Below, piece by piece: positions 615 to 42,068 of a stretch of DNA of 64,000 nucleotides. Both the position numbers and the translations under genes were made by a program. The stretch is from Mollicutes bacterium. GTDB taxonomy: Bacteria; Bacillota_I; Bacilli_A; Izemoplasmatales; Izemoplasmataceae. The stretch is taken from the NCBI GenBank assembly GCA_003553945.1, contig PWEL01000038.1:31028-95027 (forward strand). Reading direction: 5' to 3'. The stretch's first letter is position 1; the number at the start of each line of letters is the position of its first letter. A model generated the notes under the pieces. The model was not told the origin of the DNA. It ran no database searches and saw only the letters and a list, made by a program, of their open reading frames with translations.

Positions 615-2039
615 TTATTCACCCTCCTCTATGTTCTCGCCGTTATGGGCATAGATGGCTTCGATGATGGTGTTGAGTGCATCCCCGGAATATGTCGCGC
701 TGCTGAAGGCATCGCTGACATCCTCTTCTTCCATCGGGCCTTCCATGCCGCGGTATCTGGCAATCTCTTCCTCGAGAAGGTCGTTCGCGAAATTACTTTC
801 ATTAATCTCTTCAATCACGGCGTTGTGGATCAGTCCGTCAAGATCGATGGACACTTTGATGCGGAGGAGGCCTCCGGAATAATCATCCGTCAGATCCGAG
901 GTGTCCATCTCGCCGATATAGACATGGCCGAGCAGTTCATCATCTTCGTCATAATAGGGCTGATAGGATTCTACATAGTCGTTATCGATTGTTTCGACCT
1001 CGCCGGTGCGGGTGGCCCAGCGGAAGAATTCACGCAGTTCGCGCTGTTCATCGTCCTCGACACACCGCACGAAGGATTGCTCGAGGAGGTGGGTGATCGA
1101 GGAATCATATACGGTGTCGTCATACGCGGCGATATCGATGTCGCCGACATGCTCGCCGGTATAATCACGGTACTTATCAAGCGCATCCATGAGCGTCTCG
1201 GACGCCTGGTCCTCGCGGGCGACCACGACATCCTTGAACGTCTCGTCCTCGACAGCGACGACGAGGTCGATAGGATCGTGCCCCTCATCGTCGTATTGCG
1301 CCATATAGACGTGGCCCAAAAGATTGCCCTCGATATCGTAGACCGCATCCCTGTACCGGATGCAGCCGAGTGTATAATCGAAGGCCCTCTCGTAATTGTC
1401 GGCTTCAGGGTAGACCTTGCGGTAGGCATCGAGCACGCGGTCCGCCTCGGCGTTCGCAGCTGTCAGATTGACAGCCTGCCGGATGCTGTTGTAAGTGATC
1501 GTCGCGCCGGTACTGCCGTCGTAGAAATCGACGTCACGGATATCCTGCCCGGCGAAATCCCCTAGATAGTCATCCTCGATGCGCTGCACGTAGTTCGGGG
1601 TGTTCGTCGTATGCACGATCCGGACATCGAGAATCTCGAAATTTCCGTCAAAGGCCACGAGCGTCGAAATCTCACCGTGATTGTTCACATCGTCGACGCG
1701 GAACACCTGACCGAGCCGGTTTCCGTCCTTATCATAAGCGACGGCGCGCTCATACACATCCTCATCGGCCACACAGAAGAACACGATTTCGCCGATTGTC
1801 TCGCGATCGGCGTCATAGCCTTTGACCTCGCGGCGACAATAGACGTCTTGCGGTTCTTCATCGACATCGAATTCCTCGGGCATGTCGAGACCGAATATAT
1901 CGAAATATGCTTCATGTTCTTCACGGAGACGGTTCGCTTCAATGATATCCTCAGTGAACGAATTCACGCCGACAATCCCGGCGCCGCTCACTGCTCCGAT
2001 GACGAAGAGAATCAATGCAATCTTGAGTTTAGGCAACAT
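615..2039 (-). CDS. rnfG: RnfG-like FMN-binding subunit, enlarged (three FMN_bind-like repeats)
   Basis: N-terminal TM anchor MLPKLKIALILFVIGAVSGAG, canonical FMN-threonine motif STGATIT, position between rnfD and rnfE. Start trimmed to the internal Met (track ORF 615..2054). Confidence 0.85.
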   Translation of the reverse strand: MLPKLKIALILFVIGAVSGAGIVGVNSFTEDIIEANRLREEHEAYFDIFGLDMPEEFDVDEEPQDVYCRREVKGYDADRETIGEIVFFCVADEDVYERAVAYDKDGNRLGQVFRVDDVNNHGEISTLVAFDGNFEILDVRIVHTTNTPNYVQRIEDDYLGDFAGQDIRDVDFYDGSTGATITYNSIRQAVNLTAANAEADRVLDAYRKVYPEADNYERAFDYTLGCIRYRDAVYDIEGNLLGHVYMAQYDDEGHDPIDLVVAVEDETFKDVVVAREDQASETLMDALDKYRDYTGEHVGDIDIAAYDDTVYDSSITHLLEQSFVRCVEDDEQRELREFFRWATRTGEVETIDNDYVESYQPYYDEDDELLGHVYIGEMDTSDLTDDYSGGLLRIKVSIDLDGLIHNAVIEEINESNFANDLLEEEIARYRGMEGPMEEEDVSDAFSSATYSGDALNTIIEAIYAHNGENIEEGE

Positions 2040-3285
2040 AATATACCCCCACATTCGTGATTACAATCGCCAATACGACGACGATGGAGAATACAAGCAC
2101 GCTTCGAACTGTGAATCGGCTCTTCGCCCACTTCGCATAATCGAGGGCCGGCACGAACATGTTCATGATCAGGATGGCGAACACCACGCCTTCGGGGAGA
2201 TTCCCGAACAAGCGGATCAGGAATGTCAGGACACCGAGGCCGAAGGCGAAATAGATGCGGCCCGGCCTGGTGACAGGCGAGGTGATGGGGTCGGTCGCCA
2301 TGAAGACGGCGCCGAACAAGAGCCCGCCGCCGAGGACATGCACCGCCGGGAACCAGAATCCGAGATCCTGTGTGAACATGACTGTGAGACTGAGCAGGAA
2401 AACGGTGCCGATATACGTGATAGGGACGACGATGTCGAACGAACGCCGTGCGGCCAGATAGATGCCGCCGACGAGGATGAGCAGCGCGCTCGTCTCCCCG
2501 AGCGACCCCGGCAGACCGATGCCGGAGAATAGCATCCAGTAATCATAGTTATCCACCACGCCGGCATTGAACATCTGCTCGTTCAGCACTGACATGGCTG
2601 TCGCGCCGGCGTCGGCGTCGACGAACGCTTCATAGCTCAAGGCGGCGCCGAAGCTCAGCACGACGAAGACACGGGCGAACGCCGCGGGATTGAAGATGTT
2701 CTGTCCCATGCCGCCGAAGACGAGCTTCGCGAGCAACGCGCCCACGACACCGCCGACGATGACCTTGGAGAGCGGGATGGTGTCGGGAAGCGTGAGTCCG
2801 TAGATAAGCCCGCTCGTGATGATGGTGAAATTGTAGATGGTGAAGCTCCTGTTCGCAAGGCGGAAGGATTTGTTGTCGGATTTCTTCGCCGCCCTGTTCT
2901 CTTCTTTCAGGGTTTCCCTGAGCGACGCCATCCGCTGTTCATAATCCTTCATGAAGGCCTCGTAATCCTCCCGTGCTTTCTGGGTCTTCTCCTTCAGGGC
3001 CTTCTTCTTTTCCTTCTTCTGCCAGTTGAGCTCGCGGATCTTCTCCTCCGTCTCGCTCTTGGCTTCACGTTTTCGCTCCATGAAGTCCTTGATCTGATAG
3101 TAGACATATTCGGTCGCCACCATCGAGAGCACCGCGGCGAGCAGTATCAACAGGGCATCCACGCCGTGTTGATAAATCGCGAACACTATGAGCGGCGTGA
3201 GCGCGATGGATACATCGCGCATCATGCGCACGACAGTAGCGTTGGGTCTTCTCAGATGCGGTGCGTTCTTTGTCACGATATTCAT
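2029..3285 (-). CDS. rnfD: Electron transport complex subunit RnfD with a charged insertion
   Basis: Polytopic RnfD-like sequence (GGMGQNIFNPAAFARVF, ATDPITSPVTRPGRIYFAFGLG); DADAGATAMS near the expected flavin site; in rnf operon. Confidence 0.92.
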   Translation of the reverse strand: MNIVTKNAPHLRRPNATVVRMMRDVSIALTPLIVFAIYQHGVDALLILLAAVLSMVATEYVYYQIKDFMERKREAKSETEEKIRELNWQKKEKKKALKEKTQKAREDYEAFMKDYEQRMASLRETLKEENRAAKKSDNKSFRLANRSFTIYNFTIITSGLIYGLTLPDTIPLSKVIVGGVVGALLAKLVFGGMGQNIFNPAAFARVFVVLSFGAALSYEAFVDADAGATAMSVLNEQMFNAGVVDNYDYWMLFSGIGLPGSLGETSALLILVGGIYLAARRSFDIVVPITYIGTVFLLSLTVMFTQDLGFWFPAVHVLGGGLLFGAVFMATDPITSPVTRPGRIYFAFGLGVLTFLIRLFGNLPEGVVFAILIMNMFVPALDYAKWAKSRFTVRSVLVFSIVVVLAIVITNVGVYYVA

Positions 3286-3289
3286 ATTA

Positions 3290-4585
3290 TCACCTTAGCA
3301 TTTTCATGGCTTCTCTGACGTAGTCGGTCACATGGATCTTCGAGGTGCAGACATACGCGCACAGGCCGCACTCGATGCACTTGTCGGCTTCGAGGGCGCG
3401 GGCGGATTCCTTATCCTCGCGCTTCACTGCGTTCATGATCTGTACCGGCTGGATATCGACGGGGCAGGCGTAGACGCAGCTCGCGCAGCGGACGCATGGC
3501 TCCTCTACATAGTCGACGCTTTTGAGCACAAGGATCGACGTCGTCGTCTGTGTGACGACGATGTCGTCGCTCTCGATGCTTTCGCCCATCATCGGGCCGC
3601 CGACGATGACTTCGACCTTCTCCTCATCCGTGTAGCCATCGCTCAGTTCGATCAATTCCCGGACGCTCGTCCCCACGCGGGCCCTGATGTCCTGAGGAAA
3701 ATTGACAGCGTCGCCGTTGACAGTGAGATGCCGCTTGATGATGGGGAGGTTGTGCTTGACGGCCTCATAGACGCTCGCCGTCGTCGACACATTGAAACCG
3801 AGGATGCCGTATTCCATCGGCAGCGTCCCGACCGGCACTTTGATGCCGACAGCGTTCTCGAAGGTCATGTTCTCCCAGCCCTGGGGATAGAAATCATCGA
3901 GGGTCGCGATCTGGATGTTCCAATCGGAGAATCTTGAGATCTCTCGTTCGAGGACCTCGACGAGCTCCTTCTTGGTCTTCTTGACGGCGATGACGCCGCG
4001 GGTCGCATCGACCGCACGCATGAGGTAGGTGAGGCCGCGGAAGATATCCTCGGGCTGGTCCTTGATGAGGCGGTAGTCGCTGCTGAGATACGGCTCGCAC
4101 TCCACAGCGTTGATGACGACGGTGTGGATGTCCTTGTCCGTGTTCAGCTTGATATAGGAGGGAAAGCCGCTCCCCCCCAGACCGACGAGCCCCTTCTCCT
4201 TGATGATCTCCACGAAATCCTCCTGGGTGAACTGTTCGATGACGCTGTCGGGGCGGTCGGTGATGCTTTCATGATAGGTATCCTTGAAATCGTTGCGCAC
4301 GATCAGGCATTCAACTTCATCGCCGGAGCTATGATACTTGTTCGTCCTGCCCTCTATGACACCGCTGACGGTGGAATAGATGGGCTGTTCAAAGAACTTG
4401 CCCTTGCGTCTGCCGAGAATCTCACCCAGCTTGACATGATCGCCAACTTCGACATCGAGCGTATACTCCTTCGCCCTGGCGTTCTGAAGATTGATGTAGA
4501 TATAATCGGGATCGACATGCCTTAATGTCGGGAGTTCCCTGTCGAGCTGCTTGTAATCCTTGACTCTTCGGGAGTTTGTGATCAT
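3290..4585 (-). CDS. rnfC: Electron transport complex subunit RnfC
   Basis: GLGGSGFPSYIKL NADH-binding region and two 4Fe-4S motifs (CVRCASCVYACPVD, CIECGLCAYVCTSKI). Confidence 0.95.
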   Translation of the reverse strand: MITNSRRVKDYKQLDRELPTLRHVDPDYIYINLQNARAKEYTLDVEVGDHVKLGEILGRRKGKFFEQPIYSTVSGVIEGRTNKYHSSGDEVECLIVRNDFKDTYHESITDRPDSVIEQFTQEDFVEIIKEKGLVGLGGSGFPSYIKLNTDKDIHTVVINAVECEPYLSSDYRLIKDQPEDIFRGLTYLMRAVDATRGVIAVKKTKKELVEVLEREISRFSDWNIQIATLDDFYPQGWENMTFENAVGIKVPVGTLPMEYGILGFNVSTTASVYEAVKHNLPIIKRHLTVNGDAVNFPQDIRARVGTSVRELIELSDGYTDEEKVEVIVGGPMMGESIESDDIVVTQTTTSILVLKSVDYVEEPCVRCASCVYACPVDIQPVQIMNAVKREDKESARALEADKCIECGLCAYVCTSKIHVTDYVREAMKMLR

Positions 4586-7109: not shown

Positions 7110-9494
7110 CTATGTTGTTCTTTTCAGCTTCCAGATGTCATCGACATAATTCTCGATCGTACGGTCGCTCGAGAAGTATCCGCTCTTCGCGATATTCACC
7201 AGACAGGTCTTGGCGAAACCTCTTTTGTCCTTGAAGCGTTCATTCAGCCTCTCCTGCGCGTCGGAATAGGCGCGGAGGTCCTTAAGCACGAAGAAACGGT
7301 CCTCGTTCAAAAGATTGTCCTTGATCTCGGCGAACTCATCGCGTCTGACGTGGGCGAAGAATCCGTCCGTGAGCTGGTCGACGACCTGTCTGATCTCGGG
7401 GTCGTTCTCATAGATCTCCCCGGGGTCGTAGGTACCGGCTTCATAAAGGGCGGTGACTTCATCGCTGTTCATGCCGAAGATCTCGATATGGTCTTCACCG
7501 ACACGCTCGGCGATCTCCACGTTCGCCCCGTCAAGTGTGCCGAGGGTGATCGAGCCGTTCATCATGAACTTCATGTTGCCGGTGCCGCTCGCCTCTTTCG
7601 TAGCGGTGGAGATCTGCTCGCTCACATCACATGCGGGCATGATGCGTTCAGCGTAGGTGACATTGTAGTTCTCGACGAATACGACCTTGAGAAAGTCCTT
7701 GGTGTCCGGGTCGTTGTTGACGATGTCTCCGATGGTGTTGATGAGCTTGATGACCTTCTTGGCGAAATGATAGGAAGCCGCCGCTTTCGCACCGAAGATG
7801 AAACTCCTCGGGACGAAACGGTTTCGGAAGGCGACATCCGTCTTGAGGCGATGATGAAGCATCATGATATGGAGCGCGTTCATGAGCTGGCGCTTGTATT
7901 CGTGCATGCGCTTCACCTGGACATCGAAGACGCTGTCGACATCGAGTCGGACGCCCTGCTCGCGCTCGATATGGTCGGCTAGGGCCTGTTTCTTCTCGCG
8001 CTTGATCGCGAGGAACCTATCCTGCACGTCAGAATCGTCGGCGGCGTCGAGAAGCGGTTCAAGGGACAAGGTCTGCTCCCACTCCGGCGCATGTTCGCTG
8101 ATGAGGGCGGCGAGGTCCGGGTTGATGTGCTTAAGGAAACGCCGGTGCGTGATGCCGTTGGTCTTGCTGTTGAATTTGTCAGGGTACAGCGCGTGGAACT
8201 TCTTCATCTCGATGGTGGTCAATATCTTCGTATGCAGCTCCGCAACACCGTTCACACTGAATGAGCCGACGATGGCGAGATGCGCCATGCGGACTTCCCC
8301 GGCGGCGATGATGGCGAGTTCACCGATTGCTTCCTCGCTCTTGCCGTGTGTGTCGAGCAGTTCACCGCAGAAACGCTTGTTGATCTCCTCGATGATCTGA
8401 TAGACCCTCGGAATCGTCGGCTGCAGAAGACTCACAGGCCATTTCTCGAGCGCCTCGGCGAGGATGGTGTGGTTGGTATAGGCACAGGTCGATTGGGTGA
8501 TCGACCACGCCTCGTCCCATTCAAGGCCGTAATCATCGAGCAGCACGCGCATCAGCTCGGGGATGATGAGCGCGGGATGGGTGTCGTTGATCTGAAAGAC
8601 ATGATAATCGGAGAAATTCTCGAACGTTCCATGCCTTTCATAGTGGTTCCGCGTGATATCGCGGACACCGGCCGCACTGAAGAAATACTGCTGCTTGATG
8701 CGGAGGATCTTGCCCTCGCGTGTCGTATCGTCAGGATAGAGGAAACCGCTGATCTGACGAATCTCCTCGTTATAGTCGAAAGGATGGATGTCATCGGGAT
8801 AATAGTCCGTGGGCTCGGCATTCCAGAGCCTGAGCGTATTGACCACGCCGTTCGCCTCACCCGGGATCGGCATGTCGTAGGGGACGGCGCGTATCGTCTC
8901 TTCAGGGGTGTAGTGCGCATCGCCAGCTTCGAAGGAGACAGTGCCGCCGAAGGGGATGTCGATCGCTTCCTCCTCGCGCCGGACCTCCCAGGGATACGGA
9001 TTCTTCAGCCAGTCATCCGGCACTTCGCGCTGATAGCCGTGGCGCAGCGTCTGTTCGAAAAAGCCGTAGCGGTAGCGGATCCCGAAGGCGTGCCCCTTGT
9101 AGCCGAGCGAGGCGATCGAATCCAGAAAGCAGGCCGCCAGCCGGCCGAGACCGCCGTTACCAAGACCCGCATCGACCTCCTGGTGCTCGATGGCATCGAG
9201 GTCGAGCCCGATGGAATCGAAGGCGCGCTCGACAGTGTCCCGGATGCCGAGATGATAGAGATGATTCGTGATCAAGCGCCCCAGCAGGAACTCCATGGAG
9301 AAATAGTGCAGTTCCTTCTGCTCGCCGTCGCTTTGTTCGAGCCAGTCCTCGCTGATGCGTTCGAAGACCATCTGTGCGAGCGCCTGATAATGCTCCCTTT
9401 CGCTCGCCGATTCAATATCGGTCGCGAACTGGGTGCGCAGACGCTGTTTGAATTGTTCCAGGAATTGTTGTTCATTGTCGAATAAGTTCATCAT
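7110..9494 (-). CDS. glgP: Glycogen/starch/alpha-glucan phosphorylase
   Basis: GLGNGGLGRLAACFLDS, MHEYKRQLMNALH, EASGTGNMKFMMNGSITLGTLDGANVEI PLP-site region. Confidence 0.96.
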   Translation of the reverse strand: MMNLFDNEQQFLEQFKQRLRTQFATDIESASEREHYQALAQMVFERISEDWLEQSDGEQKELHYFSMEFLLGRLITNHLYHLGIRDTVERAFDSIGLDLDAIEHQEVDAGLGNGGLGRLAACFLDSIASLGYKGHAFGIRYRYGFFEQTLRHGYQREVPDDWLKNPYPWEVRREEEAIDIPFGGTVSFEAGDAHYTPEETIRAVPYDMPIPGEANGVVNTLRLWNAEPTDYYPDDIHPFDYNEEIRQISGFLYPDDTTREGKILRIKQQYFFSAAGVRDITRNHYERHGTFENFSDYHVFQINDTHPALIIPELMRVLLDDYGLEWDEAWSITQSTCAYTNHTILAEALEKWPVSLLQPTIPRVYQIIEEINKRFCGELLDTHGKSEEAIGELAIIAAGEVRMAHLAIVGSFSVNGVAELHTKILTTIEMKKFHALYPDKFNSKTNGITHRRFLKHINPDLAALISEHAPEWEQTLSLEPLLDAADDSDVQDRFLAIKREKKQALADHIEREQGVRLDVDSVFDVQVKRMHEYKRQLMNALHIMMLHHRLKTDVAFRNRFVPRSFIFGAKAAASYHFAKKVIKLINTIGDIVNNDPDTKDFLKVVFVENYNVTYAERIMPACDVSEQISTATKEASGTGNMKFMMNGSITLGTLDGANVEIAERVGEDHIEIFGMNSDEVTALYEAGTYDPGEIYENDPEIRQVVDQLTDGFFAHVRRDEFAEIKDNLLNEDRFFVLKDLRAYSDAQERLNERFKDKRGFAKTCLVNIAKSGYFSSDRTIENYVDDIWKLKRTT

Positions 9495-9512: not shown

Positions 9513-11909
9513 TTAAACCATGCTCTGATAAATCTCAAGCATCTTCTGCGCTTGTCTTTCTATGCTGAAATCGGCGCGCATGCCTGCATCCATGATGCGG
9601 CGCCATTCATCCTTGTGCTCATGAAATACCTTATAGGCGTCATCGATGCGTGCGGCGAGCGCCTCGGCGTCGTAATTGAAGAATGTGAAACCTGTTCCAT
9701 ACCTGGTGATGGGGTCGTAGTCGACGATGCTGTCGGCGAGACCGCCCGTCTTGCGGGCGATCGGCGGAGTGCCATAGCGCATAGCGATCATCTGCGAGAG
9801 CCCGCAGGGTTCGACCCGCGAAGGCATGAGGAACGCATCGGCGCCGGCGTAGATGTGCGCCGGATTAGCGGCATCGAAGCCGATATTGAGGCGCACCCTT
9901 CCAGGATGGGCCTTCTCGAGCTCCCTGAGACTTTCGATGTATCTATCCTCCCCGCTCCCGAGCAGTACGAACTGCAGGGCCTTATACCTCTCAAGCATGG
10001 TCGAGAGCGCCGGAATCAGTATCGGGAAACCTTTCTGTTCTGTGATCCGGCTTACCATGCCGAGCGTGAATTTCTCCACGCCGAGGGAGAGTTGCATCTT
10101 CTCCTGCAGGTGAAGCTTGTTCTCGCTCTTCTTGCCGATCGACTGGCGGTCGTAGGGAGAGAACACATTGGGGTCGTTCACGGGACTGTATTTCTTCGGA
10201 AGGCCGTTCAATACGCCGTGGAAATCCCGTTCGCGCTTGAGCAGCAGGGGCGTGAGACTGCCCCCGTAATAATCGTAGCGGAGCTCATCGCGATACGTCT
10301 CCGACACCGTCGATAGCTTCGAGGCTTCACTGATGCCCGTCTCGAGGAAATTCACCGTGGGGATCAAGGCGTTCGGGCGCGATTCATGCAGCAGGGATGC
10401 ATCGCACTGTCCCTGATAATCGATGTTGTGGATGGTGAGCAATGTGGGAATCCTGTCCTCGCTCTTCTGCATCAGCCCCGGAAGCAACCCGGTGTGCCAG
10501 TCATTGAGGTGCAGAAGGTCGAAAGGTCCTATGTGCTTGAAGGATTGATATACCGCGTAGTTGAAGAAGGCGAAACGCAGACAGTCGTCTTCATAGCCGT
10601 AGGTCTCCTCCCTCTCGAAGAAGGGAAAATATTCGATGAAATAATAGCGCACCTTTTCACGGAGCAGGGTGTAGATGCGGATCTTCCGCGGCTCGCCGCC
10701 GAAATCGAACGTCTCGCTCGCCACGTACTGATAGGTCTCCGCATAATTGTCCTTGATGGATTTATAGAGGGGGATGACGACATTCGTGTCCACGCCCTTC
10801 TTGCTCAAGGCACGGGAGAGCCCCTCGATGACATCGGCGAGACCGCCCGTCTTGACATAGGGGTTCGCCTCGCTGGCGACGATCAGAACACGAAGGTCGC
10901 TCTGGTCGGTGATGATCTGGCCCTTTTCCGTGACATAAGGGCTGTCGATCGTGCCCTCGACGATTGTATCGGCCTTGACCACGGTATCCTTGTCGAGGAT
11001 GACATGGTCGAGGACGGCCCCCCGTTCGACGACCGCATTGTTCATCACAAAGCTGTTTTTGACATGCGCCCCTTCCTTGATGATGACGTCGCGTCCGATG
11101 ATGCTTTTCTCGATATGGCCGCGGATATAGGAACCGCTCGATACCATGCTGTTCGTCACTGTCGAGGCGTCACTGTACCGCGCCGGCGGCGCCGTCTTCT
11201 CCTTGGAGACGATCGGACGGTCGTTTCGGAAGATAGTGCTGCCGATCTCAAAGGCGAGCATGTCGAGATTGGCCCTGAGATAAACGGAGGGTTCATCGAT
11301 CAACCGCGTGTACCCTTCATGCGTGATGGTGTTGACCCGGACCTTAGGCGAACGCCAGACAAGGTCGTTCATGGTCTTATAGGGCAGCGCGTCGTAATCG
11401 AGGATGTATTTCAACAAAAGGTCCTTCGACAGGATGAACGTCTTCAAACGGCTGTAGGGGGTCATTACCTCGCTGATATCCGCTTGCGAGGCGACATGGG
11501 CATCCAGCATCGCTTGAAAGTCGACGTTCCAGACCAGTGACGCTTGTGTGATGAGCACGTACTTCTGCGTGCTGCGGCGGAAATATTCTATATGTTCATG
11601 CATGCGCTGAAACGTCAGCATGTCCCCCAGCGGCAACATCATGTTCTTCGGCGGCAGGATGAATAGCCCGTCGCGGCGACGGTCGAGATGCCAGCGCTTG
11701 CCGCTGCCGATATGATCCTGCAGCGAGCGGTAGTTTCCGGAAGGGAAGATCGCCACATTCGTCACATGCGCATGCTTCAAGTTCGAAAGCGTGAAATCGA
11801 TGAGGCGGAACTTACCAGCGAAGGGGAGCGCACCGGGCATGCGGTGCAGGGTGAGCTTTTCAAAATTGTCACGGCTCGAGGCGTCGACCACGGCGAAGAG
11901 ATCACGCAT
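9513..11909 (-). CDS. Fusion protein: GlgD-like ADP-glucose pyrophosphorylase regulatory subunit + GlgA glycogen synthase
   Basis: One uninterrupted ORF. N-terminal ~340 aa GlgD-like (MRDLFAVVDASSRDNFEKLTLHRMPGALPFAGKFRLIDFTLSNL...); C-terminal ~460 aa GlgA-like (RVLIVASEANPYVKTGGLADVIEGLSRAL ... PSRVEPCGLSQMIAMRYGTPPIARKTGGLADSI). Confidence 0.93.
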   Translation of the reverse strand: MRDLFAVVDASSRDNFEKLTLHRMPGALPFAGKFRLIDFTLSNLKHAHVTNVAIFPSGNYRSLQDHIGSGKRWHLDRRRDGLFILPPKNMMLPLGDMLTFQRMHEHIEYFRRSTQKYVLITQASLVWNVDFQAMLDAHVASQADISEVMTPYSRLKTFILSKDLLLKYILDYDALPYKTMNDLVWRSPKVRVNTITHEGYTRLIDEPSVYLRANLDMLAFEIGSTIFRNDRPIVSKEKTAPPARYSDASTVTNSMVSSGSYIRGHIEKSIIGRDVIIKEGAHVKNSFVMNNAVVERGAVLDHVILDKDTVVKADTIVEGTIDSPYVTEKGQIITDQSDLRVLIVASEANPYVKTGGLADVIEGLSRALSKKGVDTNVVIPLYKSIKDNYAETYQYVASETFDFGGEPRKIRIYTLLREKVRYYFIEYFPFFEREETYGYEDDCLRFAFFNYAVYQSFKHIGPFDLLHLNDWHTGLLPGLMQKSEDRIPTLLTIHNIDYQGQCDASLLHESRPNALIPTVNFLETGISEASKLSTVSETYRDELRYDYYGGSLTPLLLKRERDFHGVLNGLPKKYSPVNDPNVFSPYDRQSIGKKSENKLHLQEKMQLSLGVEKFTLGMVSRITEQKGFPILIPALSTMLERYKALQFVLLGSGEDRYIESLRELEKAHPGRVRLNIGFDAANPAHIYAGADAFLMPSRVEPCGLSQMIAMRYGTPPIARKTGGLADSIVDYDPITRYGTGFTFFNYDAEALAARIDDAYKVFHEHKDEWRRIMDAGMRADFSIERQAQKMLEIYQSMV

Positions 11910-13035
11910 CGCCATCACCCCCCAGTTTCCAGAGACGGTCGTTATCGATGACTTCGACCTCATCGTAGACAAGCTCCGTCCCGGGCATGACGAGGGTGTC
12001 CTCGAGTATCATCGCATTTTTCAGCACCGCGCCTTCACCGATGGTCGCCCCCTGAAACAGCACGGAATTCTCCACATGGGCGCCGTCCTTGACCACGACG
12101 CCATTGGAGAGAATGCTCCGGCGGATCTTGCCGCTCACGAGGCACCCATCGCCGATGAGCACATCCGCGAGCGGTTCCTTCGTCGTGATGTGATGCGGCG
12201 GGAGGTCGCTTGAGCGGGTATAGACGGGAAGCTCCTTGTAATCGTGGAGCTTGAGGAGCTCGGGATGGTCGATGAGGTCCATGTTCGCTTCAAAGAGGCT
12301 TTCAATAGTGCCAACGTCCCGGAAATAGCCGTCGAAATGATAGGCATTGATCGTATATCCTTCATCAAGGGCCCTGGGGATGATATCCTTTCCGAAATCG
12401 AAGCCCTCCTCCAAGGAGTCGGTGAGAATGCGCTTGAGCGCCTCGGTGTTGAATACATACACCCCCATCGAGGCGTAGTGGCCTTCCGGCTTCTTCGGCT
12501 TCTCCTCGAAGTCACGGACGCGATTGTCATCGTCGACATTGAGCACCCCGTATCTCGAGAGCGAGTCATGCGGGGAGAAGGCGGAGATCGTGAAATCCGC
12601 ACCGCTCTCGGCGTGGACGTCGATCAGATGGTTGTAGTCCATCTTGTAGATATGGTCGCCCGAGAGGATGAGCACATACTCGGGATCATGACTGCGGATG
12701 AAGCGCATGTGCTGCCGGATGGCATGCGCCGTGCCTTTCTGCCAGACATCCCCTTCGTAGCTCGTATAAGGCGTGAGGAAATGGATGCCACCGTCCGGGA
12801 GGTCGAGGTCCCACGTGCTGCCGTGTTCGATATAGTCCATGAGGCTGTGGGGTTCGTACTGTGTGATGACGCCGACAGTATCGATGGCGGCGTTGGTGAG
12901 GTTGCTGAGGACAAAATCTATGAGCTTGTACTTCCCACCGAAGGAGACGGCGGGCTTCGCCATCCGTCTCGTGATGGGCTGAAGCCTGGTGCCGCGTCCT
13001 CCTACAAGCACCATGGCGATCGCTTTTGCCTTCAC
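11902..13035 (-). CDS. glgC: Glucose-1-phosphate adenylyltransferase
   Basis: LVGGRGTRLQPITRRMAKPAVSFGGKYKLIDF and EYVLILSGDHIYKMDY motifs. Confidence 0.96.
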   Translation of the reverse strand: MKAKAIAMVLVGGRGTRLQPITRRMAKPAVSFGGKYKLIDFVLSNLTNAAIDTVGVITQYEPHSLMDYIEHGSTWDLDLPDGGIHFLTPYTSYEGDVWQKGTAHAIRQHMRFIRSHDPEYVLILSGDHIYKMDYNHLIDVHAESGADFTISAFSPHDSLSRYGVLNVDDDNRVRDFEEKPKKPEGHYASMGVYVFNTEALKRILTDSLEEGFDFGKDIIPRALDEGYTINAYHFDGYFRDVGTIESLFEANMDLIDHPELLKLHDYKELPVYTRSSDLPPHHITTKEPLADVLIGDGCLVSGKIRRSILSNGVVVKDGAHVENSVLFQGATIGEGAVLKNAMILEDTLVMPGTELVYDEVEVIDNDRLWKLGGDGDA

Positions 13036-13036
13036 A

Positions 13037-14884
13037 CTACCCCTCCCATTTCAGAATGGAGATTGAAAGCGGCGCCAGCAGGACCCTGATGTGCTGGTCC
13101 CTGCCGTGCATCGGCTCGTCGATGCTTTCACGCGGAGCGCCGTTGAACAGGTTGGAACCGGCGTAGACATTCTTGTCGCTATTGACGATCTCGTGATAAG
13201 TGCCCTTCCGGGGGACGCCGAGGGGAAAATCATGACGGGGCGTCGGCGTGAGATTCAGAACCACGACAAGCATCTCCTCCCGCCCCCTGCTGTAGCGGAC
13301 GAAGCTGATGACACTCTCGTCCGCGTTGTCGGCGTCGATCCATTCAAACCCTTCGGGGACGTGATCGGCTTCATGAAGCGCCTTTTCCGCATGCATCACG
13401 CGGTTCATATCACGGGTGAAGCGTCTCGCACTGTCATGGACGGGATAGGAAAGCAGCTGCCAGTCGAGCTCATCGGCATCGTTCCATTCATTCATCTGGG
13501 CGAACTCGCTCCCCATGAAGAGCAGGGGCTTGCCGGGATGAGTGAACAGATAGCCGATGAGGGCGCGGTAATTGGCGAACTTCTGCCAGTAGTCCCCGGG
13601 CATCTTGTCGACGAGGCTCCCCTTCCCATGGACGACTTCGTCGTGGGAGAAGGGCAGGATGAAATTCTCCGTGAAGGCATACATCAGGGAGAAAGTCAGA
13701 TTGCTGTGGTGGTGCTTGCGATATATGGGATCCTTCTGAAAATACTTGAGCGTATCGTTCATCCAGCCCATGTTCCATTTGTAATTGAAACCGAGGCCGC
13801 CGTGTTCGATAGGATGGGTGACCTTCGGGAAGGCGCTCGAATCCTCCGCGGCGAGAATGGCGCCGTCGCATTCGGCGAACACGGCCTTCGAGAGCGCACG
13901 CAAAAAAGCGAGCGCGCCTTCGTTCACACCACGGTCGCTCTCGCCCATGTAATAGACGATATTGGAGACGGCATCGATTCTGAAACCGTCGATATGATAC
14001 TTGCGCATGAAGAAAAGGGCGTTGGAGATGAGGAAACTCCGTGTCTCGCCTTTCCCGAGGTCGAGGTTCGCAGTCCCCCACACAGGGTTCTCCCGGATCG
14101 AATCATCGTCGTATTCATAGAGGAATGACCCGTCGAAACGGTAAAGGCCGTGGGCGTCCTTGCATATATGGCCCGGCACCCAGTCCACGATCACCCCGAT
14201 ACCGGCCTGATGCGCGGCATCGACGAAGTAAGCGAAATCCTCCGGGGAGCCGTAGCGGGAAGTCACACTGTAATACCCCGTCCCCTGATACCCCCAGGAG
14301 CCGTCGAAAGGATGCTCGATGATCGGCATCAATTCGATATGCGAAAACCCTAGCGAGGCCACATAGGGTATCAAATGCCCGGCGAGTTCACGGTAGCTGT
14401 GAAATCCGCCGTCCGGTTTCCGCATCCAGCTTCCGAGATGCACTTCGTATATGGAGACAGGCTTGTCGTACGGAGCGCTTTCGCGGAGCCGGCGCATGTA
14501 GGAACCATCGCCCCAGGAGAAATCCAGCCGTGCCACCCGAGAGACCGTATCAGGCCGATTGGCGCTATAGAAAGCGAAAGGGTCGCTTTTATAGAGACGT
14601 TCCCCCTGTTTCGACAGAATGGCGTATTTATAACGCTCTCCTGTCAAGTCTCCTTCAAGAGATGTCTCGAACACGCCGGCGTCATCGACCTTCTCCATCG
14701 GATGCGCACCGAGGGCATAGTCGTTGAAAGACCCGACAAGGTCGATTGATTCCGCATTCGGCGCGTAGACACGGAAGCGCGTCTTCATACCCTCGTTTGA
14801 ATCCATCACATGGGCGCCGAAATGTTCATAGGCGGTATAGAGCGTCCCCTTGTGCAGATGGTACATGACATCCGATAAACTCAT
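13037..14884 (-). CDS. glgB: 1,4-alpha-glucan branching enzyme
   Basis: GH13 motifs: DWVPGH, GFRIDAV, AEDSSAFP, FSHDEVVHGKGSL. Confidence 0.95.
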   Translation of the reverse strand: MSLSDVMYHLHKGTLYTAYEHFGAHVMDSNEGMKTRFRVYAPNAESIDLVGSFNDYALGAHPMEKVDDAGVFETSLEGDLTGERYKYAILSKQGERLYKSDPFAFYSANRPDTVSRVARLDFSWGDGSYMRRLRESAPYDKPVSIYEVHLGSWMRKPDGGFHSYRELAGHLIPYVASLGFSHIELMPIIEHPFDGSWGYQGTGYYSVTSRYGSPEDFAYFVDAAHQAGIGVIVDWVPGHICKDAHGLYRFDGSFLYEYDDDSIRENPVWGTANLDLGKGETRSFLISNALFFMRKYHIDGFRIDAVSNIVYYMGESDRGVNEGALAFLRALSKAVFAECDGAILAAEDSSAFPKVTHPIEHGGLGFNYKWNMGWMNDTLKYFQKDPIYRKHHHSNLTFSLMYAFTENFILPFSHDEVVHGKGSLVDKMPGDYWQKFANYRALIGYLFTHPGKPLLFMGSEFAQMNEWNDADELDWQLLSYPVHDSARRFTRDMNRVMHAEKALHEADHVPEGFEWIDADNADESVISFVRYSRGREEMLVVVLNLTPTPRHDFPLGVPRKGTYHEIVNSDKNVYAGSNLFNGAPRESIDEPMHGRDQHIRVLLAPLSISILKWEG

Positions 14885-22748: not shown

Positions 22749-23825
22749 TCAGTATTCTTTTGCTTCGACCTCGCCGTCGAGGAGAGCCTTCATGTTGAAG
22801 GCGAGGGCTTCGAGTTCGTTCTCGCCGGGATAGATGCTGATGTCGCCGAGATGGTCGATCATCTCTATGAGCGGCTGGATGATGTCCTGATTATAGGCCA
22901 GGCCGCCGGTGAGGATGATCGCGTCCACCTGGGAGGCGGCGACGGCGTAAAGCCCGCCGATCTCCTTGGCGATCTGATAGACCATGGCCCGGATGACTTC
23001 CGAGGCTTCGACGCGACCCTCGCTGATCATATCGGAGACCTGTTCCGCATCCTTTGTATTCAAGTAGCTGAACATGCCGCCGTAGCTCCGGATCAGTTTC
23101 TTGAACTCCTCCTGGGTATGGCCGGCGAACGCCATGTCGATGACGCTCGAGACAGGTAGACCGCCCGAACGTTCCGGACTCATCGGACCATCCCCATCGA
23201 GGGCGTTGTTCACATCGACCACGCGCCCCTGCTTATGATAGCCCACGCTGATACCGCCACCGAGATGCGCGACGATAAGGTGCAGATCTTCATAGGGGAC
23301 GCCGCGTTTCTCGCTATAATCGCGGGCGACCGCCTTTTGATTGAGCGCATGGAAGAGACTGCGTCTGGTGATGCCGTTCAATCCTGAAAACTTCGCGACG
23401 TCGTCCATCTCGTCGACGACGACAGGGTCGGCGATATAGGCATCCTTGCCGACCTCGCTTGCCAGCGCCTCGGCGAGGAGCCCTCCGAGATTCGATGCGT
23501 GTTCGCCGTGCGTGTTGTTTTTGAGCGCCTCGATCATCGCATCGTTCACACGGTATATCCCGCTCTTGAGAGGACGGAGAAGGCCTCCTCTTCCGATGAA
23601 GCCCTCTATGGAGGAGAGTGGGATCTCATTATCCTTCAGAAACGCTTCGATGAGCTGCTTGCGCATCGGCAGCTGATCGACGAGCGATTCATACTGCAGC
23701 ATCTCTGAGCCGTCGTGACGGATGGTCGTCTTCGCATACGGACGTTGTTCCTTGAAGAACACCACCTGGTCGAACACCGCGATCTTGGTGCTCGTCGACC
23801 CGGGGTTGATTGTTAGAATGCGCAC
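22749..23825 (-). CDS. buk: Butyrate kinase (butyrate/branched-chain fatty-acid kinase)
   Basis: MRILTINPGSTSTKIAVFD, GRGGLLRPLKSGIYRVN, VAHLGGGISVGYHKQGRVVDVNNALDGDGPMSPERSG. Confidence 0.94.
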   Translation of the reverse strand: MRILTINPGSTSTKIAVFDQVVFFKEQRPYAKTTIRHDGSEMLQYESLVDQLPMRKQLIEAFLKDNEIPLSSIEGFIGRGGLLRPLKSGIYRVNDAMIEALKNNTHGEHASNLGGLLAEALASEVGKDAYIADPVVVDEMDDVAKFSGLNGITRRSLFHALNQKAVARDYSEKRGVPYEDLHLIVAHLGGGISVGYHKQGRVVDVNNALDGDGPMSPERSGGLPVSSVIDMAFAGHTQEEFKKLIRSYGGMFSYLNTKDAEQVSDMISEGRVEASEVIRAMVYQIAKEIGGLYAVAASQVDAIILTGGLAYNQDIIQPLIEMIDHLGDISIYPGENELEALAFNMKALLDGEVEAKEY

Positions 23826-23844
23826 GGCTTCATCTCCTTTCAGC

Positions 23845-24393
23845 CTAAGCGCTCACAGCGTCCATACCGGCTTCGAGCGCCTTCCTATTGAGCGCTACAA
23901 GGGCTTCCTTTCTGCCGGTGAAAAGCTCGTCGAAGACCTTGAAGATCGCTTCCTTGTCGAAGAGGTCTGTCACAGCGATGTAAGCGCCGAGCATGACCAT
24001 GTTCGCGACTTTGAGGTTGCCGATGTCGAGCGCGATCTTGTTCGCATCGACCGGGTAGAGGTCGACATCATCGCGGATGCCGTCCTGTTCGACGAGGCTG
24101 CTGTTGATGAAGAGGGAGCCTCCGCTCTTGAGCTTGTTCTCGAACTTGGCGAGCGACGGATGATTCATCACGACAAGGGAGTCCGGTTCGCTCACGACAG
24201 GTGAGTTGATGCGTTCATCGGATATCGTCACCTGGCAGTTCGCAGTCCCGCCCCTGGTCTCGGGTCCGTAGGAGGGAATCCATACAGTGTTCCTATCTTC
24301 GTGCGTCGCCGCATAGGAGAGGATCTGACCCATCAGCATGACGCCCTGTCCGCCGAAGCCGGCGACAATCAATTTTTCCTCAAGCATCGTCAT
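23845..24393 (-). CDS. 2-oxoacid:ferredoxin oxidoreductase gamma subunit
   Basis: VAGFGGQGVMLMGQILSYAA ... PSYGPETRGGTANCQVTIS, operon context. Confidence 0.92.
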   Translation of the reverse strand: MTMLEEKLIVAGFGGQGVMLMGQILSYAATHEDRNTVWIPSYGPETRGGTANCQVTISDERINSPVVSEPDSLVVMNHPSLAKFENKLKSGGSLFINSSLVEQDGIRDDVDLYPVDANKIALDIGNLKVANMVMLGAYIAVTDLFDKEAIFKVFDELFTGRKEALVALNRKALEAGMDAVSA

Positions 24394-25141
24394 CCTCCTT
24401 CGTCATATCTTTGTAGACACCGAGGGGATAATAGGGGATCATGTTCTCGACCGCCCAGTCGAGTGAATCCTTCGGCTCCATGCCCCAGTTGATCGGGCAG
24501 GTGGAGATGAATTCGATCAAAGTGAAACCTTGTTTCCCACTCTGGATGTCGAAGGCTTTCTGAAGCGCCTTCTTGGCCTTCCTGACATGCTTGGGGTCAT
24601 GCACGCTCACGCGTTCGAGATACGTAGCGCCGGGCACATTGGAAAGCAGCTCGCAGACTCTGAGGGGTTCACCGGCCTGCGCTTTTTCACGTCCGTGCGG
24701 AGAGGTGGTGGTCTGCTGGCCGAGCAGCGTCGTCGGCGCCATCTGGCCGCCGGTCATGCCATAGATCGCGTTGTTGACGAAGATTATGGTGATGTTCTCG
24801 CCGCGGTGCGCAGCGTGGACGGCCTCGGCGAGACCTATGGATGCGAGGTCGCCATCGCCCTGATAGGTGAACACAGTGCTTTCGGGGCGGACCCGCTTGA
24901 TACCGGTCGCAACCGCCGGGGCGCGGCCGTGGGCCGCCTGATGCATATCGCAGTCGAAGTATTCGTAGGCCATGACGCTGCAGCCGACGCTCGCGACACC
25001 TACCGAACTCTCGATGAGGCCCCTCTCTTTCAGCACCTCGCCGACGAGATTGTGGATGATGCCGTGGGTGCAGCCGGGACAATAGTGGTATTCCCTTTCG
25101 GTGAGACCCGCCTGCGGTCTGTAGACAGTCTTCGTATTCAT
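24380..25141 (-). CDS. 2-oxoacid:ferredoxin oxidoreductase beta (TPP-binding) subunit
   Basis: YCPGCTHGIIHNL, TYQGDGDLASIGLAEAVHAAHRGENITIIFVNNAIYGMTGGQMAPTT. Confidence 0.93.
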   Translation of the reverse strand: MNTKTVYRPQAGLTEREYHYCPGCTHGIIHNLVGEVLKERGLIESSVGVASVGCSVMAYEYFDCDMHQAAHGRAPAVATGIKRVRPESTVFTYQGDGDLASIGLAEAVHAAHRGENITIIFVNNAIYGMTGGQMAPTTLLGQQTTTSPHGREKAQAGEPLRVCELLSNVPGATYLERVSVHDPKHVRKAKKALQKAFDIQSGKQGFTLIEFISTCPINWGMEPKDSLDWAVENMIPYYPLGVYKDMTKEDDDA

Positions 25142-26208
25142 TATGCATCCTCCTTGAGCGCGGCGCGCACATGCTCGACAATCTCTTCGGGCTCGGGGAC
25201 GACGCCGCCGGTGCGGCCGAAGAAATCGAGCTTGTAACGTCCGTTGTTGATGATCTGTACGTCCTGATGCATCTGTCCGAGACTCATCTCAAGCGTGATC
25301 AGGCTATGCGTGCGCTCCGGCAATGCCTCGAACGCCTTCTTTGGGAACGGGAACAAGGAGATCGGACGGATCATGCCGACCTTCACGCCTTCCTCCCTGA
25401 GCATTTGCACGGCATTGCGCGCGACACGCGCCATCGTTCCGTAAGCGACAAAAACGATATCCGCATCCTCTGTCTCGATCATCTCGTAGCGCTGTTCCTT
25501 TTCGCGCATTTCATCGTATTTGCCCTTGAGTTTCAGATTATGCTCTTCTAGCTTATAGGGGTCGAGATAGAGCGACGCGATCCGGTTGCGGTATCCGCGT
25601 TCCCCGTAACCACCGTCCGCGGCCCATTCCTTCTTGCCGGCCGCCTGCGTCTTCTCAGTCTCTTCAAGGGTGATCGGCTCCATCATCTGTCCGAGCAGCC
25701 CATCGACCGCGACCATGACGGGATTGCGGTAATGATCGGCGAGCGGAAAGCTCTCCTTGATGAGGTCGACCGCCTCCTGCAGGTTTTCGGGGGCGAAGGA
25801 AAGCACCTTGTAGTCGCCGTTGCCGCCGCCGCGCGTGATCTGGTTGTAGTCGGACTGGCTGGGCTGGATGCCGCCGAGCCCCGGTCCGCCGCGCATGACG
25901 TTGATGATGACGCAGGGGATCTCGCTCCCGGCGAGATAGCTTATGCCCTCTTGCTTCAGGGCGATGCCCGGACTAGAAGAGGATGTCAGAACTCTCGCGC
26001 CGGCGCCGCCGGCGCCGTAGACCATGTTGATGGCCGCGACTTCGCTCTCGGCCTGCACGAAGACACGGTCGTTCGCGGGCATGTGATGGGAGAGATATTC
26101 GGGCAGCTCGTTCTGCGGCGTGATAGGGTAGCCGAAGAACGCATCGGCACCACCTTTGATCGCTGCGAGCGCCATCGCTTCATTGCCTTTCATCAATACC
26201 TTGCTCAC
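25141..26208 (-). CDS. vorB: 2-oxoacid:ferredoxin oxidoreductase alpha subunit (VorB-like)
   Basis: GNEAMALAAIKGGADAFFGYPITPQNELPEYL, TSSSSPGIALKQEGISYLAGSEIP. Confidence 0.9.
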   Translation of the reverse strand: MSKVLMKGNEAMALAAIKGGADAFFGYPITPQNELPEYLSHHMPANDRVFVQAESEVAAINMVYGAGGAGARVLTSSSSPGIALKQEGISYLAGSEIPCVIINVMRGGPGLGGIQPSQSDYNQITRGGGNGDYKVLSFAPENLQEAVDLIKESFPLADHYRNPVMVAVDGLLGQMMEPITLEETEKTQAAGKKEWAADGGYGERGYRNRIASLYLDPYKLEEHNLKLKGKYDEMREKEQRYEMIETEDADIVFVAYGTMARVARNAVQMLREEGVKVGMIRPISLFPFPKKAFEALPERTHSLITLEMSLGQMHQDVQIINNGRYKLDFFGRTGGVVPEPEEIVEHVRAALKEDA

Positions 26209-26438
26209 TTTGACCCCTCCTTCACGAACCGCTCCACGGTGATCACGTTATCCGGGCACATCATCGCGCAGAACGAGCAGGCGATGCATTGTTCCGGATC
26301 CGTCACATAGAGCGGTGTGTAGCCTTTTTTGTTGGTCTTGCTCCGGTCGAGGTCGAGGATGTCGACCGGACACGGATGAATGCAAAGACCGCAGCCCTTA
26401 CATCTGTCCTCATCGATGATAATCCTTCCTTTTGCCAT
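26205..26438 (-). CDS. 2-oxoacid:ferredoxin oxidoreductase delta subunit (2x4Fe-4S ferredoxin)
   Basis: CKGCGLCIHPCPVDIL and CIACSFCAMMCPDNVI. Confidence 0.92.
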   Translation of the reverse strand: MAKGRIIIDEDRCKGCGLCIHPCPVDILDLDRSKTNKKGYTPLYVTDPEQCIACSFCAMMCPDNVITVERFVKEGSK

Positions 26439-26447
26439 AGTAGCCTC

Positions 26448-27104
26448 CTATAACCACGTTTTGGCAAGGTAGCGCCTTAGGGGCCTCACAGTGCCGGAGA
26501 AATCGCTCTCCTTCACATCCACATTTTCAGGATGGAACGTGTAGACGATGGGGATGTCTGTTTCGGCAGAGACCTCCCTCAGGATGCTCTCACCTTGCTG
26601 GATGGTTGATGCGTCGGTTTCACGCATGAGATTGGAATTGTTTACAAGTCCGCTCACTCTCAGCTGGGCGGCGCCCTCGAGCGTCTGTATGAGTGATACG
26701 ATCTTTTCGGTGGTGCTTGTCTCCGGACGGAATACGTTGATGACAACGAAGAAATCAAGGGGCGTCTCGGCGTCGATCAGACTGCTGAACTGTCTCATGA
26801 GTTTCGCCCCGGCCTTTGTGCCGGCGAGGTCGTAGACAGCGCGGAGCGATGTGTCGATGAATGGGCGCCTGCTACCGGCGCTGATATACGGCAGGTCGCT
26901 CCCTGAAGATCTCGGCAGCGATGACTCGATGAGATCGACACCGTGTCGCGTCAATAAATCGTGGACACTACGGGAGCGGAAATAGGGATTGACGACATCA
27001 AGGTCGATGAGGGCATCGAGCTTGAAATCGATTGCGAGATTTACGGCGATCTCCGTCTTTCCCGCTCCGTAGTGTCCACTGATTACAGTCAGTCGCTTCA
27101 TCAA
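26448..27104 (-). CDS. P-loop NTPase (MinD/CobQ-like)
   Basis: SGHYGAGKTEIAVNLA Walker A, ALIDLDVVNPYFRSR; 4-bp overlap with upstream dehydrogenase. Confidence 0.75.
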   Translation of the reverse strand: MMKRLTVISGHYGAGKTEIAVNLAIDFKLDALIDLDVVNPYFRSRSVHDLLTRHGVDLIESSLPRSSGSDLPYISAGSRRPFIDTSLRAVYDLAGTKAGAKLMRQFSSLIDAETPLDFFVVINVFRPETSTTEKIVSLIQTLEGAAQLRVSGLVNNSNLMRETDASTIQQGESILREVSAETDIPIVYTFHPENVDVKESDFSGTVRPLRRYLAKTWL

Positions 27105-28177
27105 CGGTTGATGGTGTTGGACTGGATCCTGCCGATCTCCTCGATGCGGTTGCGGGCGAAGATCTTCGCCGCTTCCTGGGTATGCGTATCGTTATCGCGG
27201 GCCACTTTATAGATATCGAGGATCCTGTCGTGGATGCTTTCTATCTCGTTGAAGGCTTTCTCCCGGTTGTAGCCTTCCGGATGAAGCTCGTGAGAGACGT
27301 TGATCAGACCGCCGGCGTTGATGACGAAATCGGGCGCATAGAGGATGCCTTTGTCCTTGAGGGCCTGGCCGTGCTTCTCTTCATCTTCGAGTACGTTATT
27401 GGCAGTACCGGCGACGATCGGGGCCTTCAGACACTCGACTGTCTCGTCGTTGATGACAGCGCCCAGCGCACAGGGGGCGAAGACATCGACGTCGAGCTCG
27501 CAGATGCTTTCAGGCTTGACGAATTCAACGCTGGGATACTTGTCATTGATCTTTTCAATATGCTTTTCATTGATCTCGGTGAAATAGATCTTCTCGGCGC
27601 CCGCCTCGAGCAGATAGCCGATAAGATAGTCCCCGGTCTGTCCGGCGCCCTGTACGGCATAGGAGTATTTGCTGATGTCATTGTCGCCGTATTTCTCCTT
27701 GAGGGATGCGCGGATGCCGTGGAAGGCTCCCCAGGCCGTAGCCGGAGAGGGATTGCCGCTTTTTTCCGGAATGGCGACGACGTGGTCGGTCTCCATGTTG
27801 ATGTACTTCATCGCCTTCACATCGGTATTGACATCGGGCGCGGTGATATAACGTCCGCCGAGTGTCTGGACATACCGTCCGAACGCCCTGAAATATGCTT
27901 CGGACTTGACTTTTTCAGGATCGCCGATCAGCACTGACTTGCCGCCGCCGAGATTGAGACCGGCGCATGCGGCCTTGTACGTCATGCCGCGGGCGAGACG
28001 AAGCACATCGAGCGTCGCTTCTTCCTCGTCATCATAGTTCCAGAGCCTCGTGCCACCCAGGGACGGACCCAGGGTCGTGTTGTGGATGCACGTGATGCCT
28101 TTGAGACCCGTGCTCTCGTCATGGAAGAACACAAGTTGCTCGTATCCGTGCTTCTCCATGTACTCGAATTTTTTCAT
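27101..28177 (-). CDS. Glu/Leu/Phe/Val-type amino-acid dehydrogenase (leucine dehydrogenase-like)
   Basis: GGTRLWNYDDEEEATLDVLRLARGMTYKAACAGLNLGGGKSVLIGDP; PCALGAVINDETV; APDFVINAGGLINV. Confidence 0.93.
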   Translation of the reverse strand: MKKFEYMEKHGYEQLVFFHDESTGLKGITCIHNTTLGPSLGGTRLWNYDDEEEATLDVLRLARGMTYKAACAGLNLGGGKSVLIGDPEKVKSEAYFRAFGRYVQTLGGRYITAPDVNTDVKAMKYINMETDHVVAIPEKSGNPSPATAWGAFHGIRASLKEKYGDNDISKYSYAVQGAGQTGDYLIGYLLEAGAEKIYFTEINEKHIEKINDKYPSVEFVKPESICELDVDVFAPCALGAVINDETVECLKAPIVAGTANNVLEDEEKHGQALKDKGILYAPDFVINAGGLINVSHELHPEGYNREKAFNEIESIHDRILDIYKVARDNDTHTQEAAKIFARNRIEEIGRIQSNTINR

Positions 28178-33997: not shown

Positions 33998-34653
33998 GGG
34001 CTCTCCTCCGGAACCACCATGTCGGGGAACGCTTCCTTCAAGCGGTCCCTCGTGTAATGTTCATCGAGGAACTCCCCGTACGGTGTGAGGGGATCCACCC
34101 CTTCTTCTCGCAGATTCTGCCGGATCAAGGCGGTATAGGAGAGGAACATGTTCAACAGGATGAACACGCCCAGCCCCCCGATCAAGAGAGCGCCGATTCT
34201 CGGCGGAATGCGCTCAATGATGTCAGAAAGCGGCGGATAGACGCCGCGCACCATGAAGAGCGCCAACACCCCCCAGAAAAGACTGTAGGGAACCGTCGTC
34301 CGCCCGTTGATATTCAGAAGCCGCCCTTCATAATCCCAGGAGACACGACCGGTGAAGAACTCCTGGCCAAGATTGGCGGCGTACTCGAACGCACCCCCGA
34401 GAAGCGCCCCTGCAAGCAACGCGACATACCATCTCCTGAAAGGTTTGAGCGCATAGAGCATGAGGACATAGCCCGCCCCATAGAGCGGATTGAACGGACC
34501 ATACAGGACACCGCTACGGTTCTCGTAGTACCCTTCCCGCACGAGATGGAGCACTTCCTCATAGACCGTGCCGACAAGCGACCCGACGAGGAATACAGCG
34601 ACGACCTTATAGAAAGAGAGCCCTTCAGCGAAAAGACCCTTCCCCTTGTTCAT
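33994..34653 (-). CDS. Putative ABC-transporter type IV / CmpB-like membrane protein
   Basis: FLVGSLVGTVYEEVLHLVREGYYENRSGVLYGPFNPLYGAGYVLMLYALKPF pattern; multi-TM. Confidence 0.7.
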   Translation of the reverse strand: MNKGKGLFAEGLSFYKVVAVFLVGSLVGTVYEEVLHLVREGYYENRSGVLYGPFNPLYGAGYVLMLYALKPFRRWYVALLAGALLGGAFEYAANLGQEFFTGRVSWDYEGRLLNINGRTTVPYSLFWGVLALFMVRGVYPPLSDIIERIPPRIGALLIGGLGVFILLNMFLSYTALIRQNLREEGVDPLTPYGEFLDEHYTRDRLKEAFPDMVVPEESP

Positions 34654-35867: not shown

Positions 35868-36864
35868 GTGACTTGAGGGCCTCGACCGCCCGCCGGCCGC
35901 TCTCGCTCTTCAGATAACGATACGTCGCCTCGGGCACATATTTCCTGACAGCCTCGACACCGTTCTTCTTGAGCAGTTTCCGGACAGTCGAGGCGCTTAT
36001 GGGTGTCGCTTCAAGCGTCTTGCGCTCGATGATTCTAAGCTTAGAACCGAGATAATGCTTCATGGTGGCGTTATACGTCTTCGTCATGGGACTGTAGGGC
36101 TCCTCCCCCACATAACGTACGTTGATATTGAAGATATCCATGTAGTGCTGTTTGAATGTCAGCACATCGATGACGGCGTGGTCCTTTTGAATGTTCTTCT
36201 CTTGTTTGGAGAAATACTTGGGGAATGTCGCGAAAGAGATGAGATAGTCCCCGCTCGGAAGCACGGTGACACCCTCCCTGTCGGCAAGCGCCTTTTCGAT
36301 GATCGCGAAACGCTCTTCAAAGGGGAAGAACGAACGGTCCTCGCTGACGACGAAGACCAGAAGTTCGCCGCAATCCTCGAGCGCGGTGTCGATCAGATGA
36401 AGGTGCCCCTTGGTCAAGGGGTTCGCGTTGATCACGACACTGCCCTTCGCACGCCGGCTCACTCCGTATTCATCACGCATCGAGACGAGCGTCGCGCGAA
36501 TGTCTCCGCCGCGTTCGAGGAAGGACATGTTCATCGACTCGACAATCGAGGTGAACCCGAGATGCTTGAACAGGTCGACATGCTCGGGGAGCGTGTAGAC
36601 GAAAAGGTGCCGTACGCCCTTTTCGTGCAGCCGCTTGATGAGCGCACTCATCAGCGGATTGAGATATCCCCTGCCCTGATAGGCGGGATGAACGGCGACG
36701 CTCTTGATGATATTCGCAGCCGAGGAGGCCGTCGCGATAAGCGCATCATCCTCGTACAGCGCGAGCGTGATGTCGATATCGTCTTCATACGTAAGATGGA
36801 ATCTTTTCAGAAACCTCCGTATCTCCTGCTTTTCCTCCTCCAGTACAACATCCTTGATATCCAT
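35851..36864 (-). CDS. citC: [Citrate (pro-3S)-lyase] ligase
   Basis: GNAT-like N-terminus plus nucleotidyltransferase GSVVINANPLTKGHLHLIDTAL and PISASTVRKLLK. Confidence 0.92.
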   Translation of the reverse strand: MDIKDVVLEEEKQEIRRFLKRFHLTYEDDIDITLALYEDDALIATASSAANIIKSVAVHPAYQGRGYLNPLMSALIKRLHEKGVRHLFVYTLPEHVDLFKHLGFTSIVESMNMSFLERGGDIRATLVSMRDEYGVSRRAKGSVVINANPLTKGHLHLIDTALEDCGELLVFVVSEDRSFFPFEERFAIIEKALADREGVTVLPSGDYLISFATFPKYFSKQEKNIQKDHAVIDVLTFKQHYMDIFNINVRYVGEEPYSPMTKTYNATMKHYLGSKLRIIERKTLEATPISASTVRKLLKKNGVEAVRKYVPEATYRYLKSESGRRAVEALKSHDARH

Positions 36865-36867
36865 GCT

Positions 36868-42059: not shown

Positions 42060-42068
42060 GCCAAACCC

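Follow-up and report, generated by a model that had tools for sequence, protein, structure and literature searches.

A single gene in the window, which is the whole stretch of 64,000 nucleotides that was analysed, joins the coding sequence of GlgD, a helper subunit of ADP-glucose pyrophosphorylase, to the coding sequence of a complete glycogen synthase, GlgA. By sequence comparison, this fusion is real and conserved, and it is a GlgA fusion that appears to be undescribed so far in the open-licence literature. Taken together, the evidence makes it probable that glgDA had a single origin and encodes one chain, in which a non-catalytic GlgD half pairs with GlgC and carries an active synthase. Positions 9513-11972 of the minus strand form one uninterrupted open frame, in which ATG 11909 is the best start codon, because it follows a G-rich Shine-Dalgarno-like run by 8 bases and overlaps the glgC stop by 8 bases. 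The run, a probable Shine-Dalgarno sequence (GGGGGG; 11918..11923, minus strand), lies within the end of glgC. From this start codon, which is also that of the initial annotation, glgDA (9513..11909, minus strand) encodes 798 residues plus a stop, with a computed mass of 91.0 kDa. The product matches the GlgD profile TIGR02092 with 265.4 bits (269.9 bits in a whole-genome search; curated cut-off 236.6) and the GlgA profile TIGR02095 with 440 bits (curated cut-off 328.45), the latter over profile positions 2-476 of 477. These scores, both above the NCBIfam cut-offs, bear out the initial proposal of a single ORF joining a GlgD-like half to a complete GlgA. A combined GlgD-GlgA model was absent among the best 25 NCBIfam matches to glgDA.

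The assembly of the genome that bears glgDA (1.17 Mb) is fragmented and 64% complete, which would leave room for an assembly or sequencing error that removed a stop codon. However, an open frame crossing the join recurs in 52 of the 61 sampled genomes of the little-studied order of the window (Izemoplasmatales-like; the window's own genome included, and a few frames cut by contig ends), and the same join is found in single-contig genomes such as G013, G027, G040, G044, G071, and G082. Thus, chance or mis-assembly is excluded, and an error of this kind has a negligible probability. The remaining nine genomes of the order contain no intact fusion, and the copy in one of them (G030) is decayed by stops. 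We saw no separate glgD-glgA pair in any of the 61 genomes; this conclusion extends to the nine genomes lacking the fusion, because the best matches there score far below the level expected of an intact GlgD from this clade. Outside the order, stop-free full-length fusions are present, among 395 genomes of the class, in families f10 (G097, G105, and G113) and f14 (G071, G082, G092, G100, G108, and G116), and a wider "phylum" search, which covered the same class only, added no further fusion-bearing family. The search for the fused architecture that had been suggested as a check therefore indicates that the fusion is not peculiar to this genome. By contrast, glgD and glgA are separate in all named outgroups, which come from plasmid records only (Anoxybacillus, Lactiplantibacillus, Enterococcus, Monoglobus, Subdoligranulum, Acetoanaerobium, and, from outside the phylum, Fusobacterium). 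The initial view of GlgD and GlgA as separate proteins in Firmicutes thus holds for every named outgroup, but fails for the order of the window and for f10 and f14, where fusion is the rule or common.

Other candidate fusions were rejected. Spanning matches with one stop in f7, f9, f18, f19, and f21 proved on inspection to be separate in-frame neighbours; at these loci (L060-L071), glgD and glgA repeatedly share a frame with one stop between them and are unfused. A Subdoligranulum plasmid match (H13) likewise consisted of separate genes. An 839-aa frame in G326 (L075 355-2871, minus strand) is a GlgA with a Lys/Ala-rich repeat tail and no GlgD. In this frame, GlgA follows a run of Lys/Ala/Glu-rich repeats (PAAKKAEAK...) that spans about 350 residues and resembles a histone tail; it could provide the glycogen synthase with an unusual tail for binding or charge. 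In genus g5, the fusion is intact in G024, is decayed by many stops in a small-genome member (L098; G030:C8:9754-12095), and has no match in G009 and G036.

The first GlgA residue is residue 339 of the glgDA product (window position 10895). Neither a stop codon nor an added linker is present at the join, and the GlgD tail leads straight into beta-strand 1 of GlgA. The earlier description of the join as lacking a linker is correct in that nothing was added; however, the native GlgD tail, which extends for about 14 residues past a conserved Pro and is modelled at low confidence, serves as the connector. This tail (14 aa; 10896..10937, minus strand) has a constant length in 46 of 46 fused sequences, which show no insertion or deletion in the join stretch. 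An AlphaFold single-chain model contains two formed halves (mean pLDDT 83, pTM 0.70), with pLDDT < 50 at residues 330-338 (numbered from ATG 11915), so that the connector would be short as modelled; the pTM of 0.70 implies that the placement of the halves relative to each other is uncertain. Purifying selection acts on the two halves and on the join alike (dN/dS ~0.12 for GlgD, 0.17 for the join, and 0.11 for GlgA in the L008/L009 pair). In most of seven pairs compared, the conservation of the GlgD half roughly equals or exceeds that of the GlgA half. These results imply that the GlgD half is not a decaying passenger.

Two proteins might still be made from this frame, if GlgA were re-initiated internally or freed by proteolysis. 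Consistent with this idea, the start of GlgA still coincides with an ATG in two f10 fusions, and the low-confidence residues of the model may be flexible and accessible to proteases. However, the frame in the window has no potential start codon (ATG, GTG, or TTG) from residue 311 to residue 367, which upholds the claim of the initial annotation that GlgA has no restart codon at the join. Moreover, 35 of the 46 fused sequences lack an ATG near the join, and 40 of the 46 lack a start preceded by a Shine-Dalgarno-like sequence. We therefore rejected an internal start at the join for the window and for most relatives, and we consider the synthesis of two products very improbable.

The fused GlgA halves fall into a single clade (support 0.97-0.98), and so do the fused GlgD halves (0.94-0.96), which adjoin Anoxybacillus GlgD (0.98); support for placing the fused GlgAs of f10 together with those of f14 is weak (0.197). 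The single clade for each half and the constant length of the join favour one fusion over independent, repeated fusions. Based on these sequences, this event most likely took place in a glgB-C-D-A-P operon in a common ancestor of the order of the window and two related families, of which glgDA is a possible shared derived character. In Anoxybacillus, whose GlgD is 40% identical to the GlgD half of the window, glgD likewise follows glgC and precedes glgA, but it encodes a separate protein and overlaps glgA by 4 bases in a different frame. In a relative from f14 (G124), GlgD ends in TAA and the ATG of GlgA comes directly next, in frame. The simplest history suggested by these arrangements is one event involving small sequence changes between touching glgD and glgA genes.

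The same arrangements raise the alternative that the joining was incidental, in that a near-neutral fusion left the halves acting as ordinary GlgD and GlgA, with no gain in channelling or regulation. The genes were collinear and nearly touching before the fusion, and a few base changes sufficed, without a new domain or an added linker. Against this interpretation, the length of the join is identical in three families within the order as well as in the two further families, and no reversion to separate genes was seen in the order. The constant join and the lack of reversion suggest that the arrangement does no harm, at the least, and is possibly favoured. We regard incidental joining as a serious possibility, at somewhat below even chances; it is compatible with pairing between GlgC and the GlgD half, and contests only the importance of the tether.

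The GlgD half (aa 1-338; 10896..11909, minus strand) consists of a degenerate nucleotidyltransferase domain and a left-handed beta-helix. Sequence alignment indicates that it lacks the nucleotide-binding G-loop, the catalytic Asp, the Glc-1-P Lys, and the second metal-site Asp, and a sugar-binding segment of ~37 residues is missing. The Glc-1-P Lys is absent from 48 of 48 GlgD halves, where its whole surrounding segment is deleted; the catalytic Asp is replaced in 45 of the 48, and the second Asp is not conserved. An Arg that matches R52 of E. coli GlgC is kept. The catalytic positions of GlgD and GlgC were assigned by E. coli residue numbering. Judged by these residues, the GlgD half has lost all catalytic function; it is of the short Bacillales type, which is represented by the GlgD of Geobacillus and Anoxybacillus (~340 aa) and is likewise a non-catalytic partner of GlgC. 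The unfused GlgD of G124 has the same deletion around the Glc-1-P Lys, which implies that this deletion predates the fusion.

By contrast, GlgC encoded immediately upstream (11902..13035, minus strand) is an intact catalytic subunit of ADP-glucose pyrophosphorylase that keeps the nucleotide-binding loop and the three residues (both Asp and the Glc-1-P Lys) that the GlgD half has lost. The operon begins with glgB (branching enzyme; 13037..14884, minus strand), and its last glg gene is glgP (glycogen phosphorylase; 7110..9494, minus strand), both assigned from ORFs and profile matches, as was glgC. This glgB-C-DA-P order matches the glgBCDAP layout known from other Firmicutes, such as L. acidophilus (PMC4282360), except that D and A are joined in the window. 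An intact glgC lies immediately upstream of glgDA in 37 of 37 loci tested and overlaps it in most of them. This constant position leads us to expect pairing of GlgC with the GlgD half, and the initial annotation's expectation of such pairing fits these gene orders and the absence of catalytic residues from the GlgD half. In other Firmicutes, GlgD is inactive and forms GlgC/GlgD tetramers; its effect in Geobacillus is modest (a ~3-fold gain in efficiency with the normal substrate), and in other groups it alters the response to effectors (PMC9093745). By analogy with the small effect in Geobacillus, the regulatory role of the GlgD half may be small here.

The GlgD half could instead have ceased to be a partner of GlgC and now serve GlgA alone, as an integral domain for regulation or oligomerisation. 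Its loss of all catalytic residues while conserved residues such as the R52-matching Arg are kept, and its conservation relative to the GlgA half, are consistent with such a role. However, a glgC that is adjacent in every tested locus, and mostly overlapping, is what would be expected of a co-assembling partner, and complexes with GlgC are known for the stand-alone form of this type of GlgD (PMC9093745). We therefore consider a domain serving GlgA alone improbable.

The GlgA half (aa 339-798; 9516..10895, minus strand) is a complete GT5 glycogen synthase. The motifs K-x-G-G, HN..YQG, R..(E)QKG, and EPCG, which bind ADP-glucose and the acceptor in solved enzymes, are present in the window and are invariant or nearly so across 30 fusions. 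The best Foldseek matches (1rzu, 6gne, and 2qzs) are GT5 glycogen or starch synthases. The half resembles stand-alone GT5 GlgA (TIGR02095; E. coli 2qzs and A. tumefaciens 1rzu) in its complete domain, its motifs, and its best structural matches, but it is borne on the GlgD tail. It is not free-standing and has no start codon of its own, features that are usual for GlgA, though outside the TIGR02095 family model. Every catalytic motif checked is intact, and the GlgA half is most likely an active synthase, as predicted from its sequence.

These properties suggest a mechanism in which the fusion of neighbouring glgD and glgA genes gave one polypeptide that would be translated as a single chain. 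The GlgD half would join GlgC, the product of the upstream gene that overlaps glgDA, in a mixed ADP-glucose pyrophosphorylase, and the C-terminal tail of each GlgD subunit in this enzyme would lead into an active glycogen synthase. Synthase and pyrophosphorylase partner subunits would then be present in a fixed ratio, and ADP-glucose would be made close to its point of use. If pairing occurs, tethering follows, but channelling does not. Tethering of ADP-glucose synthesis to the synthase is thus the more modest and better supported proposal, whereas ADP-glucose channelling or allosteric cross-talk between the halves is speculative. A stronger version, in which GlgC and GlgD-GlgA form a stable bienzyme particle that transfers ADP-glucose preferentially, or in which effectors of the GlgC/GlgD core directly control the synthase, strikes us as rather unlikely. 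The covalent tie of an ADP-glucose-making complex to the synthase would make enzyme coupling in bacterial glycogen synthesis testable with one purified protein pair, and would place a pseudo-enzyme subunit, whose known function is modest, within a concrete architecture.

A close known parallel is the GlgA-GlgB fusion of Waddliaceae and Criblamydiaceae, in which glycogen synthase is likewise joined covalently to a neighbouring glg protein; in Waddlia, the synthase half of this fusion has enzyme activity (PMC7935935). In that fusion, however, the partner is a C-terminal, enzymatically inactive branching enzyme, and glgC has been lost, whereas glgC is kept adjacent in the window. The same study of Chlamydiae treated GlgA fusions as exceptional and stated that no further GlgA-GlgB example had been reported (PMC7935935). 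The TreS-Mak fusion of the GlgE pathway (PMC11046441) also joins consecutive alpha-glucan enzymes, but both of its halves are catalytic and the pathway is different. Among fused enzymes, a review from 2024 on the alpha-glucan enzymes of prokaryotes covers TreS-Mak and GlgB-MalQ, and the accessible part of its text leaves GlgD unmentioned. We found no description of a GlgD-GlgA fusion in the open-licence literature; database annotation or subscription papers might mention one.

A second, unfused glgA-glgC pair without glgD is present in the same genome, amid unrelated housekeeping genes (G000:C48:44800-47289; L079 4651-7302), and similar unfused pairs are present in most relatives. This separate pair implies that the fusion is not the sole route to ADP-glucose-type glycogen, and that one tethered and one free synthase would coexist in the genome. 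Elsewhere in the window, reading of the ORFs alone revealed other genes. Those at 34650-43466 (minus strand) resemble the methylaspartate route of glutamate fermentation, which is notable in a relative of Mollicutes, and include glutamate mutase and its reactivating protein, methylaspartate ammonia-lyase, and citramalate lyase and its ligase, all named by resemblance. A cluster at 22749-28177 (minus strand) resembles those for branched-chain amino acid fermentation, with butyrate kinase-like and leucine dehydrogenase-like ORFs and subunits of a 2-oxoacid:ferredoxin oxidoreductase, and Rnf-like genes occupy 615-4585.
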